From contig NZ_QZWI01000003.1 in NCBI RefSeq assembly GCF_003614975.1, positions 310,001 to 374,000 on the forward strand: a stretch of DNA of 64,000 nucleotides, given 5' to 3'. The stretch's first letter is position 1. Each line of letters opens with the position of its first letter. Source of the DNA: Rahnella bruchi. GTDB lineage: Bacteria > Pseudomonadota > Gammaproteobacteria > Enterobacterales > Enterobacteriaceae. A program made the translations under genes and the position numbers. The notes beneath the pieces were generated by a model, which was given only the letters and a program-made list of their open reading frames with translations, was not told the origin of the DNA and did no database searches. This document shows, one piece after another, positions 1,355 through 64,000 of the stretch.

Positions 1355-2125
1355 GTGAAAGCAATTATCGTCGAAGATGAAGTACCGGCTCAGGAAGAGC
1401 TGAGTTATCTGATTAATACGCACAGCAGCATTCAGGTCGAAGCGATTTTTGACGACGGCCTGGACGTGCTCAAATACCTGCAATCCCATGAAGTGGATGC
1501 GATTTTTCTCGATATCAGTATCCCGTCGCTCGACGGTGTTTTACTGGCGCAAAATATCAGTAAATTTGCCCATAAACCCTATATCGTGTTCATCACTGCC
1601 TACAAAGAACACGCCGCCGAAGCCTTTGAAATCGAAGCGTTTGACTACATTCTCAAGCCTTATCATGAGTCGCGTATTGTCACCATGCTACAAAAGCTGG
1701 AGTCGCATTTTCGTCGTGATAAAGAACTGGCGGGTAAAGCGTCTGGAGAGAAACAGGAAGGATTTCAGCCGGGAACGGGCAACGCGCAGCGGGTCAGTCA
1801 CAGCATTAATCTGATCAAAGACGAGCGGATTATCGTCACTGATATAAACGATATTTATTACGCCGCCGCGCAGGAAAAAGTGACGCAGGTGTACACCCGC
1901 AAGGAAGAATTCACCATGCCGATGAACATCACGGAATTATGCAACCGCCTGCCGGAGGAGCATTTTTTCCGCTGCCATCGCTCATATTGCGTGAATCTGT
2001 CGAAAATCCGCGAAATCGTGCCGTGGTTTAATAACACCTATATTTTGCGTCTCAGCGATCTGGATTTCGAAGTGCCGGTTAGCCGCAGCAAGGTGAAGGA
2101 ATTCAGACAGTTAATGCGTTTTTGA
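1355..2125 (+). CDS. ypdB: LytTR response regulator YpdB/PyrR
   Basis: A cytoplasmic DNA-binding response regulator, partner of the preceding kinase. Residues 1-120 form a CheY-like receiver with acidic residues E7-D8, the phospho-acceptor D53 and the conserved K101. Residues about 150-250 form a LytTR DNA-binding domain (IYYAAAQEKVTQVYT, then HRSYCVNL). Translation starts at GTG 1355, with ggggag at 1341-1346 as ribosome binding site. At 256 residues it is slightly longer than E. coli YpdB (244), through a linker of about 25 residues between the domains. In E. coli the regulator activates yhjX after pyruvate sensing; the target here is unknown. Confidence 0.92.
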   Translation: MKAIIVEDEVPAQEELSYLINTHSSIQVEAIFDDGLDVLKYLQSHEVDAIFLDISIPSLDGVLLAQNISKFAHKPYIVFITAYKEHAAEAFEIEAFDYILKPYHESRIVTMLQKLESHFRRDKELAGKASGEKQEGFQPGTGNAQRVSHSINLIKDERIIVTDINDIYYAAAQEKVTQVYTRKEEFTMPMNITELCNRLPEEHFFRCHRSYCVNLSKIREIVPWFNNTYILRLSDLDFEVPVSRSKVKEFRQLMRF

Positions 2126-2129
2126 TGTA

Positions 2130-2153
2130 GGGCTCTTTAAAAATAAAAAGCCC
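2130..2153 (+). terminator. possible weak terminator after ypdB
   Basis: A GGGCT/AGCCC hairpin with an A/T-rich loop begins right after the ypdB stop. It lacks a proper U tract, so it is only a possible end of the ypdAB transcript. Confidence 0.3.
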
Positions 2154-2171
2154 GATACTTCCGCTAAGTCA

Positions 2172-2276
2172 TTGGAGTTGCAGTAAGGCGGCAAGGGAGA
2201 AGAACCCGATGAGCTGACTGATGTCAGTGATTCGGTTCTTCGAACGCAGCCAACGCCGCCGCAACTTTAAGGACGA
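2172..2276. repeat. structured palindromic intergenic element
   Basis: The gap between ypdB and glk holds a long imperfect palindrome. Outer arms are agttgc (2175-2180) with gcaact (2261-2266), then ggcggc with gccgcc. Inside are agaacc (2201-2206) with ggttct (2234-2239), and ctgac (2214-2218) with gtcag (2223-2227) around a four-base loop. It would fold on either strand. The size and layout resemble the small non-coding repeats of enterobacteria (ERIC/REP-like). I cannot prove it is repeated in the genome from this window; a degenerate look-alike may lie near 12110-12185. Confidence 0.5.
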
Positions 2277-2283
2277 AGGGGAA

Positions 2284-3249
2284 TTAGAGGGTCATACCGA
2301 TCGACTGACGTAAGTACGCCCCTGCGCCTAACAAGCCTGGTTGATCGTGTGTGATCAGGAACACCGGAATATCCATCAGATAATCTTTGAAGCGGCCTTT
2401 GTCTTCAAACGCGGCGCGAAAACCAGACGCTTTGAAGAATTCGAGGAAGCGCGGAACGATGCCGCCGGCAATGTATACGCCGCCGAATGTCCCCATGTTC
2501 AGCGCCAGGTTGCCGCCGAAACGGCCCATGATCACGCAAAACAGTGAAAGTGCACGGCGACAATCGACGTTTTCATCCGACAGCGCCAGCTCGGTCACGT
2601 CTTTCGGTTTAAAGTTTTCCGGCACACGCTTATCTGATTTCACGATGGCGCGGTAAAGATTCACCAGCCCAGGACCGGACAGAATACGCTCGGCGGAAAC
2701 GTGTCCCATTTCTGTACGCAACTGCTCAAGAATGATGTCTTCTTCTTCGCTGTTCGGTGCGAAATCCACATGACCGCCCTCGCCCGGCAGGCTCAGCCAC
2801 TGCTTGTTGGCGTGGATCAGATGCGCGACACCCAGCCCGGTACCTGCGCCATAAATTACTGCCGGTTTTCCGTCCTGTGCTTTTTTCCCGCCAAACTGCA
2901 ATAAATCCTGTTCTTTCAGCATCGGGATCGCCATTGAGACGGCGGTGAAATCGTTGATCACTTCCAGATGTTGCAGGCCCAAACTTTTCTTCATTTCTGC
3001 AATGGAGAATGCCCAGGTGTGGTTAGTCATTGCCACCCAGTCGCCGGTGATAGGACAGGCAATGGCGATGCAGGCATCTTCAATCTCCTGGTTTTGCTCA
3101 GAGAGATACTCACGGACTGTGGCTTCGAGGCTGTCGTATTCCAGCCCTGAAAAGGTCTTCGCCTGCGAAATCTCGCCGCTGTCCAAAGCGCAAAGCGCCA
3201 GGCGGCAGTTGGTGCCCCCGACATCGCCCACCAGGGAGTATTTGGTCAT
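2284..3249 (-). CDS. glk: glucokinase
   Basis: Phosphorylates free cytosolic glucose to glucose 6-phosphate with ATP, the non-PTS entry into glycolysis. The 321-residue protein has the same length as E. coli Glk. It opens with the ATP-binding motif [10 protein letters not shown] (residues 8-17) and carries the sugar-binding/catalytic stretch INDFTAV near residue 100 and GAGTGLGVA, which places it in the bacterial Glk family rather than ROK kinases. The start has a GGAG ribosome binding site. It is convergent with ypdB, and its neighbours ypdAB and yfeO match E. coli. Confidence 0.96.
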
Positions 3250-13744: not shown

Positions 13745-13820
<76 letters not shown>

Positions 13821-13894
13821 ACACGAGGTCGTACACATTTTACTTTTTTGTTTCCCTTGGGAAGGAAACAGCCAACTTACTCTGGAAAGGAAGT

Positions 13895-13970
<76 letters not shown>

Positions 13971-14044
13971 ACACGAGGTCGTACACATTTTACTTTTTTG
14001 TTTCCCTTGGGAAGGAAACAGCCAACTTACTCTGGAAAGGAAGT

Positions 14045-14120
<76 letters not shown>

Positions 14121-17048: not shown

Positions 17049-17124
17049 GGGCGATTAGCTCAGTTGGTAGAGCATCTCCTTTACACGGAGGGGGTCGGCG
17101 GTTCGAGCCCGTCATCGCCCACCA
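17049..17124 (+). tRNA. valU: tRNA-Val(UAC), copy 1
   Basis: 76-base tRNA with encoded CCA. The anticodon loop TTTACAC gives UAC. Acceptor stem GGGCGAT pairs with ATCGCCC. Confidence 0.95.
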
Positions 17125-17170
17125 CTCCTTAAGAGTGCCGCGTTGTGATAAGTAAGAAGAATTGAGAAAT

Positions 17171-17246
17171 GGGCGATTAGCTCAGTTGGTAGAGCATCTC
17201 CTTTACACGGAGGGGGTCGGCGGTTCGAGCCCGTCATCGCCCACCA
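17171..17246 (+). tRNA. valX: tRNA-Val(UAC), copy 2
   Basis: Identical to copy 1, 122 bases downstream. The 46-base spacers are also identical. Confidence 0.95.
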
Positions 17247-17292
17247 CTCCTTAAGAGTGCCGCGTTGTGATAAGTAAGAAGAATTGAGAAAT

Positions 17293-17368
17293 GGGCGATT
17301 AGCTCAGTTGGTAGAGCATCTCCTTTACACGGAGGGGGTCGGCGGTTCGAGCCCGTCATCGCCCACCA
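17293..17368 (+). tRNA. valY: tRNA-Val(UAC), copy 3
   Basis: Identical to copies 1 and 2, with the same 122-base period. Confidence 0.95.
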
Positions 17369-17414
17369 CTCCTTAAGAGTGCCGCGTTGTGATAAGTAAG
17401 AAGAATTGAGAAAT

Positions 17415-17490
17415 GGGCGATTAGCTCAGTTGGTAGAGCATCTCCTTTACACGGAGGGGGTCGGCGGTTCGAGCCCGTCATCGCCCACCA
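17415..17490 (+). tRNA. tRNA-Val(UAC), copy 4
   Basis: Fourth identical copy. E. coli carries three at this locus. Its 3' spacer changes to a short seven-base link before tRNA-Lys. Confidence 0.95.
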
Positions 17491-17497
17491 CTTCTGC

Positions 17498-17573
17498 GGG
17501 CCGTTAGCTCAGTTGGTAGAGCAGTTGACTTTTAATCAATTGGTCGCTGGTTCGAATCCAGCACGGCCCACCA
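17498..17573 (+). tRNA. lysV: tRNA-Lys(UUU)
   Basis: 76 bases with encoded CCA. The anticodon loop CTTTTAA gives UUU. It ends the Val/Lys operon, as lysV does in E. coli. Confidence 0.95.
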
Positions 17574-61683: not shown

Positions 61684-63069
61684 ATGTTTACCCCCGATTC
61701 TTTTGTTCCGGAACTGCTTTCCCCTGCCGGCTCCCTGAAAAACATGCGTTACGCTTTCGCGTATGGTGCTGATGCCGTTTATGCCGGTCAGCCACGTTAC
61801 AGCCTGCGTGTACGTAATAACGAATTTAACCACCAGAATCTGGAGATCGGCATCAACGAAGCCCATGTTCTGGGTAAGAAATTCTACGTGGTGGTGAATA
61901 TCGCGCCGCATAATGCCAAGCTGAAAACGTTCATCCGTGATCTTCAGCCGGTGATCGACATGGGGCCAGATGCCCTGATCATGTCCGATCCGGGCCTTAT
62001 CATGATGGTACGAGAAGCGTTCCCGCAGATGGATATTCATCTTTCGGTGCAGGCTAATGCCGTGAATTGGGCGACGGTGAAATTCTGGAAACAAATGGGG
62101 CTGACTCGTGTGATTTTATCGCGCGAGTTGTCACTGGAAGAAATTGCAGAGATCCGCGCCCAGGTGCCGGATATGGAAATTGAAATTTTCGTTCACGGCG
62201 CGCTGTGCATGGCGTATTCCGGCCGCTGTCTGCTTTCCGGCTACATCAACAAACGTGACCCGAATCAGGGGACCTGTACCAACGCCTGTCGCTGGGAATA
62301 TAAAGTGCAGGAAGGCAAAGAAGACGCCATCGGCAATATCGTGCATCAGTACGAACCGATCCCGGTTCAGCAGGTAGATGCCGCAGAACCGACATTAGGC
62401 ATCGGTCAGCCGACAGATAAAGTGTTTATGCTCGAAGAAGCCCTGCGCCCCGGCGAATACATGAGTGCTTTTGAGGATGAACACGGCACTTATATTATGA
62501 ATTCCAAGGATCTGCGCGCCATTCAGCATGTGGAAACTCTGACAAAAATGGGCGTGCATTCGCTGAAAATCGAAGGCCGTACTAAATCATTCTATTACTG
62601 CGCGCGTACCGCACAGGTGTACCGCCGGGCCATTGATGATGCCGTCGCCGGTAAGCCTTTCGACCCGACGCTGCTTTCCACACTTGAAGGTCTGGCACAT
62701 CGCGGATATACCGAAGGTTTCCTGCGTCGCCATACTCATGACGCACAACAGAACTACGAATATGGTTTCTCCGTCAGCGACCGTCAGCAATTTGTCGGCG
62801 AATTCACCGGAAACCGGATGGATGGCTGGGCCGAAATCGATGTGAAGAACAAATTCAGCGTCGGCGACAGTGTGGAAATGATGACGCCGCAAGGTAACGT
62901 CCAGTTCAAACTGGAAGCGCTGCGCAATAAGAAAGGCCAGCCAACTGACGTCGCACCGGGCAACGGCCACATGGTGTATGTCGCGCTGCCGGAAGACCTC
63001 AATCTGCAATTCGCCATTTTATTGCGTAATCTGGAAGAAACGGATACCCGTAATCCGCATTCGAAATAA
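61684..63069 (+). CDS. trhP: tRNA hydroxylation protein TrhP (YegQ), U32 peptidase family
   Basis: A U32-family Fe-S protein (461 residues, E. coli 453) needed for 5-hydroxyuridine at position 34 of certain tRNAs, with prephenate as a likely hydroxyl source. The barrel starts PELLSPAGSLKNMRYAFAYG, and the cysteine cluster lies near 175-205 (CMAYSGRCLLSGY, then GTCTNACRWEY). IEGRTKSFYYCARTAQVYR near 295 is conserved. ATG 61684 gives the family start; seven extra upstream codons are possible. In E. coli the small RNA CyaR follows yegQ, as here. Confidence 0.93.
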   Translation: MFTPDSFVPELLSPAGSLKNMRYAFAYGADAVYAGQPRYSLRVRNNEFNHQNLEIGINEAHVLGKKFYVVVNIAPHNAKLKTFIRDLQPVIDMGPDALIMSDPGLIMMVREAFPQMDIHLSVQANAVNWATVKFWKQMGLTRVILSRELSLEEIAEIRAQVPDMEIEIFVHGALCMAYSGRCLLSGYINKRDPNQGTCTNACRWEYKVQEGKEDAIGNIVHQYEPIPVQQVDAAEPTLGIGQPTDKVFMLEEALRPGEYMSAFEDEHGTYIMNSKDLRAIQHVETLTKMGVHSLKIEGRTKSFYYCARTAQVYRRAIDDAVAGKPFDPTLLSTLEGLAHRGYTEGFLRRHTHDAQQNYEYGFSVSDRQQFVGEFTGNRMDGWAEIDVKNKFSVGDSVEMMTPQGNVQFKLEALRNKKGQPTDVAPGNGHMVYVALPEDLNLQFAILLRNLEETDTRNPHSK

Positions 63070-63084: not shown

Positions 63085-63100
63085 CAAGAATTCGATCACA
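63085..63100 (+). promoter_or_regulatory. class II CRP site and promoter of cyaR
   Basis: CAAGA-attcga-TCACA has a perfect right half of the CRP site and a weak left half. Its centre is 41.5 bases before the predicted RNA start (63134). A TAATAT -10 element lies at 63122-63127. Spacing is that of a class II CRP promoter; E. coli cyaR is CRP-activated. Confidence 0.6.
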
Positions 63101-63133
63101 TCTATTTCTGACCGGGCTGGCTAATATGCATTC

Positions 63134-63226
63134 GCAATTTACTTCGAATGCAAAATAATGCACCGGACTATACCAGGAACCACCTCCTTGGCCAGCTCAA
63201 TCTCCCTTGAGCTGGCTTTTCTTTTT
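63134..63226 (+). ncRNA. cyaR: small RNA CyaR (RyeE)
   Basis: An Hfq-binding trans-acting RNA of about 90 bases. The conserved core taccaggaaccacctcctt (63165-63190 region) and the block aatctccctt match E. coli CyaR, as recalled, and are followed by a 3' terminator stem gccagctcaa/ttgagctggc (63191-63216) and a T-rich tail. The terminator stem has changed in sequence but kept its pairing, which is good evidence for a conserved RNA. A hairpin GCATTCG/CGAATGC (63128-63151) spans the start. It lies just downstream of trhP/yegQ as in E. coli, where CyaR represses ompX, luxS and nadE. The start is estimated from the -10 element. Confidence 0.88.
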
Positions 63227-63467
63227 CAATTCCTTTAACCCCTTATTTAACTAAACCCGCATGATTCGACTTAAATCTTCGATTACTCTCATTAATAACA
63301 TGACGTCTTATCGTTTTAATAAAATACGTTTCTGAAAAATAAACATCGTTTCTAATTAATCTCACTGCAATTATTTATCTTCAAAGTCAATTTTTAGCTG
63401 AATTATCCGATAGCCAAATACCGCCCCTATCATCTATTGTTGGTGTATATAGATGAAAGGAGCGTAC
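63227..63467. other. A/T-rich gap before yegS
   Basis: About 240 A/T-rich bases between cyaR and yegS, with no visible gene or clear operator. It should contain the yegS promoter. Confidence 0.4.
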
Positions 63468-64000
63468 ATGACCACAGCAATGCTGATTTTAAATGGAAAA
63501 GGCGCAGGCAACGAAGAGCTGCGGATAGCCATCGGCGCGCTACGTAAAGAGGGCGAAAATCTCTATGTGCGCGTCACCTGGGAGTATGGAGACGCCGCAC
63601 GGTATGTGGAAGAAGCCATCGGGCTGGGCTGTGAAACCGTCATTGCCGGTGGTGGAGACGGCACCATTAATGAAGTCGCTGGTGCGCTGGCACAATACCA
63701 GGGCCAGCAGCGGCCCGTGCTCGGCATCGTACCGCTGGGCACCGCGAATGATTTCGCCACGGCCTGCAATATTCCCCTGCAACCGGAACAGGCGTTACAA
63801 CTGGCGGTGAAAGGCCGTGCGGTGGATATCGATCTGGCCAATGTGAACAACCAGCATTTCTTCATCAACATGGCGACCGGCGGTTTCGGCACCCGTATCA
63901 CTACCGAAACGCCGGAAAAACTCAAGGCCGCACTCGGTGGTGTGTCCTATTTTATCCACGGACTTTTGCGTCTGGATACACTGAAAGCTGACCGCTGTGA
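63468..64000 (+). CDS. yegS: lipid kinase YegS (3' end outside the window)
   Basis: N-terminal 177 codons of a diacylglycerol-kinase-family lipid kinase; the gene continues past the window. The nucleotide-binding motif [14 protein letters not shown] is near residues 63-76, [10 protein letters not shown] near 90-99, and [26 protein letters not shown] (as [20 protein letters not shown]) near 128-150, all as in E. coli YegS, which phosphorylates phosphatidylglycerol in vitro. ATG 63468 follows aaaggagcgtac. Confidence 0.93.

Follow-up and report, generated by a model that had tools for sequence, protein, structure and literature searches.

A cyaR small RNA ortholog behind trhP in Rahnella bruchi, with a predicted class II CRP promoter and a terminator carrying compensatory changes

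CyaR is a well-known small RNA that is switched on in enteric bacteria once glucose is gone. The window studied here, i.e., the whole analysed stretch of 64,000 nucleotides of Rahnella bruchi DNA, contains a confident, ordinary ortholog of its gene. This confirms the observation made in the initial annotation and supports its interpretation. In our opinion, it is highly probable that the locus encodes a cAMP-CRP-activated and probably Hfq-dependent small RNA that would block the translation of ompX and probably of nadE, too. Rahnella joins the organisms with a recognisable CyaR, which is a known family and not a new class of biology. Across the sampled enteric genera, the spacing between the CRP site and the promoter, the seed and the structure of the terminator are kept, and the first 35–40 nt vary freely.

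The proposed identity was checked using a search with the Rfam covariance model RF00112 (CyaR/RyeE), which matched positions 63138-63222 of the plus strand with 70.8 bits, 24 bits over the curated cut-off (gathering score 47), and aligned over its full length (model positions 1-85 of 85). The E-values of this match, 1.5e-11 for the window and 3.1e-13 for the whole genome, exclude a chance resemblance, and the window copy is the single RF00112 match in the Rahnella bruchi genome. The conserved seed and terminator-loop sequence of the family are present, and the core strings that had been noticed in the gap 3' of trhP were located at 63172-63189 and 63199-63208. A model comprising the seed plus the terminator (R1) scored 79 bits at this locus, which was the sole place below E 0.1 in its own genome; seven others had values of 0.165-0.67. 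The predicted transcript, about 89 nt long (63134..63222, plus strand), folds with a z-score of -4.90. A blastn search with the 142-nt stretch gave no match in E. coli genomes; identity thus rests on core, structure and synteny.

The upstream synteny marker is trhP (yegQ), a gene of tRNA U34 hydroxylase (61684..63069, plus strand), which matches NCBIfam NF011996 with 842.8 bits at a cut-off of 534. Downstream, a yegS-like lipid kinase gene (63453..64000, plus strand) runs to the window edge; its first ATG is at 63453, and its start may be at 63468, since the NF009602 match covers 63468-63998 on the plus strand (285.2 bits, cut-off 284). The gap between these genes is 383 nt (from the stop at 63069 to the first ATG at 63453), and cyaR lies inside it on the same strand. 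The gene order in the window is baeR, a yegP-like gene, trhP, cyaR and yegS, and the order yegP-trhP-cyaR is the same in E. coli K-12. The yegP-like gene is presumed to be such from its position, NCBIfam giving no match above the cut-off.

The initial annotation had also suggested a class II CRP promoter, and the sequence and spacing bear this out. The putative CRP site, CAAGA-N6-TCACA (63085..63100, plus strand, centre 63092.5), has a perfect right half, TCACA at 63096-63100, and a weak left half, in which CAAGA matches TGTGA at 2 of 5 bases. The distance from the T of TCACA to the -10 box TAATAT (63122..63127, plus strand) is 26 nt. In an alignment of 114 oriented loci (113 from genome searches plus K-12), which are not independent and mostly represent one locus per genus, the right CRP half is perfect in 110 loci and reads TCAC[AG] in 113. 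A TAnnnT motif starts exactly 26 nt after the T of TCAC[AG] in 109/114 loci, compared with 33 of 2712 cases at the other 24 offsets tried (15 to 39 nt). Within Rahnella, both TCACA and TAATAT are constant in 14/14 loci, and the full CRP 16-mer varies at 6/16 columns. The proposed spacing of -41.5 holds with the centre at 63092.5 and the start at 63134, the TAATAT box being placed as described; the exact start is less firm, as is the left half-site. In fact, the distance between the T of TCACA and the annotated start is 39 nt in K-12, which on grounds of homology would allow the Rahnella transcript to begin at 63135 instead, both positions being predictions from promoter geometry. A simple -35/-10 scan did not list the cyaR promoter, as expected where transcription depends on an activator and no -35 box is present.

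The transcript would end in an intrinsic terminator (63190..63226, plus strand) composed of an 11-pair stem, the loop TCTCCC and a U-rich tail, which was also picked out by a terminator scan. The 3' stem, 63191-63200 with 63207-63216, has 10 perfect pairs, and a closing G-U pair is added in the fold. The initial annotation described this stem as unlike that of E. coli and yet perfectly paired, its structure being conserved by covariation, and the family alignment agrees. Among 62 distinct sequences, all 11/11 stem pairs have two-sided changes, with 94.5% of the cells paired and a covariation score of 0.596 vs 0.244 after shuffling and no more than 0.133 after sliding. Pairing is weakest at the closing pair, where 19/58 cells are unpaired. 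Comparison of the K-12 stem with that of Rahnella shows both bases replaced in 4 of the 11 pairs and a single base in one more. Genuine as they are, the compensatory changes characterise the CyaR family in general and are not peculiar to Rahnella.

The seed CCAGGAACCACCTCCTT (63173..63189, plus strand) is retained from E. coli, and its ACCACCT portion is invariant across 32 sequences. Within it, AACCACCTC is perfectly complementary, over 9 bp, to the Shine–Dalgarno (SD) region of Rahnella ompX: the start of this gene carries TTTGAGGTGGTTATG, in which GAGGTGGTT pairs with AACCACCTC. The nine complementary bases are identical in E. coli ompX. At the protein level, Rahnella OmpX is 76% identical and NadE is 79% identical. 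For control, 56 ORF starts were taken mechanically from the window (at least 150 codons, first ATG), among which the longest seed complement was 6; a 9-bp seed complement is reached by 0.034% of the 30-mers of the plus strand of the window. The nadE start can form 10 pairs with the seed around a bulge, the longest unbroken seed match being 6. When duplex energy was restricted to the seed, 1 of the 56 controls was as low, for ompX and for nadE each. Over the whole 5' part, neither gene was outstanding, 18/56 controls being at least as low for each; because of this, targeting is supported by the seed comparison only.

Taken together with published work, these data suggest the following course of events. 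At low glucose, cAMP-CRP would act as a class II activator: bound to the half-site with its centre near -41.5, it would recruit RNA polymerase to the TAATAT promoter, yielding a transcript of about 89 nt that ends in its own terminator. The RNA would then be held by Hfq, for which a U-rich tail and an A-rich 5' part are present in Rahnella CyaR, and its C-rich seed would pair with the SD region of ompX and probably of nadE, blocking the entry of ribosomes and promoting mRNA decay. CRP activation is expected here from studies on E. coli and Yersinia. According to two reports on Y. pseudotuberculosis, the cyaR promoter is bound by CRP (PMC4376681), and CyaR is Hfq-dependent and undetected in a crp mutant (PMC11795201). 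The latter source also states that ACCACC of CyaR protects the ompX SD and that CyaR lowers ribosome binding. In E. coli, nadE mRNA drops when CyaR is over-expressed (PMC7213987). An action of ArcZ on CyaR has been described as well (PMC11331407). By analogy with both organisms, Hfq binding and target repression may be expected in Rahnella, namely blocking of the ompX ribosome site with the participation of Hfq, with nadE as a probable further target.

The locus of E. coli K-12 (b4438) shares with that of Rahnella its place after trhP, the seed CCAGGAACCACCTCCTT, the loop TCTCCC, an intrinsic terminator, a CRP half-site with the 26-nt step to the -10 box and complementarity to the ompX SD. The two differ in their first 35–40 nt, which are not recognisably alike, in the left CRP half (CAAGA in Rahnella, TTAGA in K-12), and in the discriminator together with an inverted repeat that is Rahnella-specific. 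Yersinia CyaR resembles that of Rahnella in having a conserved seed and a variable 5' end, and its dependence on CRP and Hfq and its ompX target correspond to the behaviour expected for Rahnella; variation of the 5' part between Yersinia and E. coli has already been reported (PMC11795201). Unlike in Yersinia, almost no pairing between seed and tail is given by RNAfold for Rahnella CyaR at 10, 25 or 37 C. A thermo-switch may nevertheless exist in Rahnella, because structure probing of Yersinia CyaR differed from the predicted structure (same source).

Two other readings of the locus seem very improbable to us. The hairpin might be merely the terminator of trhP, its resemblance to CyaR being incidental; it does lie about 120 nt 3' of trhP, shares the orientation of that gene and has the form of a good intrinsic terminator. 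However, the seed, the CRP site and the spacing to the -10 box are conserved beyond the needs of a terminator, RF00112 is matched over its full length, and four terminator-like R1 matches standing after another gene (family f21) reach 29.2-34.7 bits, far from the 79 bits obtained here. Just as improbable is a decayed cyaR, namely a sequence that persists in Rahnella with a promoter or seed that has lost its function. Such decay would agree with the weak left CRP half-site and with the position of the Rahnella score among the matches of the family sample, 56 of 87 being above 70.8 bits (best 106.4) and 30 below. Against it, the -10 box is invariant, and the seed and stem vary at 1/17 and 1/27 columns, respectively, among 14 Rahnella genomes (the seed segment of this count was set one base to the right of 63173..63189), whereas the adjacent DNA varies at 14/21 columns of the CRP to -10 spacer and 13/13 columns downstream. 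The CRP 16-mer varies, too, yet its TCACA is constant.

More room, albeit not much, is left for an intact CyaR with control added in Rahnella. An inverted repeat, GCATTCG-N10-CGAATGC (63128..63151), was found by a repeat search across the discriminator and the predicted start. Its 7-bp arms occur at one place per genome in 14/14 Rahnella genomes and are invariant there, 1 of the 24 columns being variable (in the loop); it is absent from the locus of another genus that is closest by eye (L060). The repeat could be a DNA operator spanning the -10/+1 region, or a 5' stem if transcription started about 6 nt upstream. On this unlikely view, the Rahnella cyaR promoter gained an element that is bound by a local regulator vetoing CRP activation. 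The length of the arms speaks in its favour, as does the discriminator, in which 0/6 columns vary among the 14 Rahnella genomes vs 5/6 in genus g144 (31 loci, of 38 matched genomes) and 2/6 in genus g149 (25/25 loci); the CRP to -10 spacer varies at 7/21 columns in each of the latter two. These figures hint at a genus-specific constraint, but the hint is weak, since six columns only are compared, ancestry is shared, length variation inflates the figure for g144 and the arms are without variation. Arms that never vary give no evidence of covariation, and no second copy of the exact dyad exists in any of the 14 Rahnella genomes, so no regulon is visible. As for the 5' stem, a hairpin of the repeat folds well in RNA beginning at 63128 (-30.4 kcal/mol for the whole RNA), but a start directly after the -10 box is infeasible and no other -10 box fits; RNA from 63134 forms another, weaker 5' hairpin. 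The repeat may carry no meaning, and an ordinary CyaR remains our preferred reading. In the same region, the stretch between the start and the seed core varies at 6/46 columns among the 14 genomes. It includes part of a small ORF of 10 codons, ATG to TAA (63126-63158), identical in 13/14 Rahnella loci and one base off in the 14th. This ORF was rejected as a gene because its first base lies within the -10 box, ahead of the predicted transcription start.

Each of the 14/14 Rahnella genomes contains one RF00112 copy above the cut-off. In the family sample, a match (E <= 0.001) was found in 87/149 genomes, 74 of them over the cut-off; 62 genomes gave no match, and among 20 listed ones, 19 are of at most 2.4 Mb and one is of 4.5 Mb. 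In the wider order, 30/394 genomes have a match, 29 belonging to Rahnella's family and 26 being over the cut-off. The locus from outside the GTDB family (L063 of genome G164) scores 46.9 bits with RF00112, just below the cut-off, and 58.7 with R1; it is the sole match outside the family with R1 below E 1e-7 and was also found by Rfam. It is taken as a true cyaR ortholog because trhP (78% identical) stands immediately upstream. Weaker R1 matches outside the family had no trhP within 3.5 kb in 10 of 13 genomes (G465, G409 and G498 being left out) and were rejected as CyaR, as they resemble ordinary terminators or coding sequence.

The gap after trhP had been predicted to be left empty by gene finders. 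This fits the situation in E. coli, where K-12 cyaR (b4438) is annotated and 8 listed places, of 5,375 with cyaR, have nothing annotated where the match lies; it is therefore unsurprising if automatic annotation leaves the gap empty, and routine annotation can miss this small RNA. A literature search on Rahnella small RNAs and Hfq gave no title on CyaR among the matches listed. A search combining CyaR and Rahnella gave one paper, PMC4618604.

Several observations concern individual loci. A cyaR beside trhP in genome G131 (L169) scores 49.4 bits with R1 and is absent from the order-wide RF00112 results. In a genome of genus g144 (G567, L222, ~1758-3067), the seed of cyaR is interrupted by a stretch of about 1.2 kb with two ORFs, and RF00112 matches lie on both sides; we take these ORFs to resemble an IS3-type transposase pair. 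In E. coli O157:H7 TR01 (L128), cyaR is matched only as far as nucleotide 63, with P2-like prophage genes (ogrK, late control D) coming next, and in E. coli K-12 an annotated prophage remnant starts inside cyaR. Prophages seem to insert at the cyaR terminator. Elsewhere in the window, tRNA genes are clustered at two places: the minus strand has three equally scoring tandem copies (13748-14120), and the plus strand has four identical copies, then a different tRNA (17049-17570).
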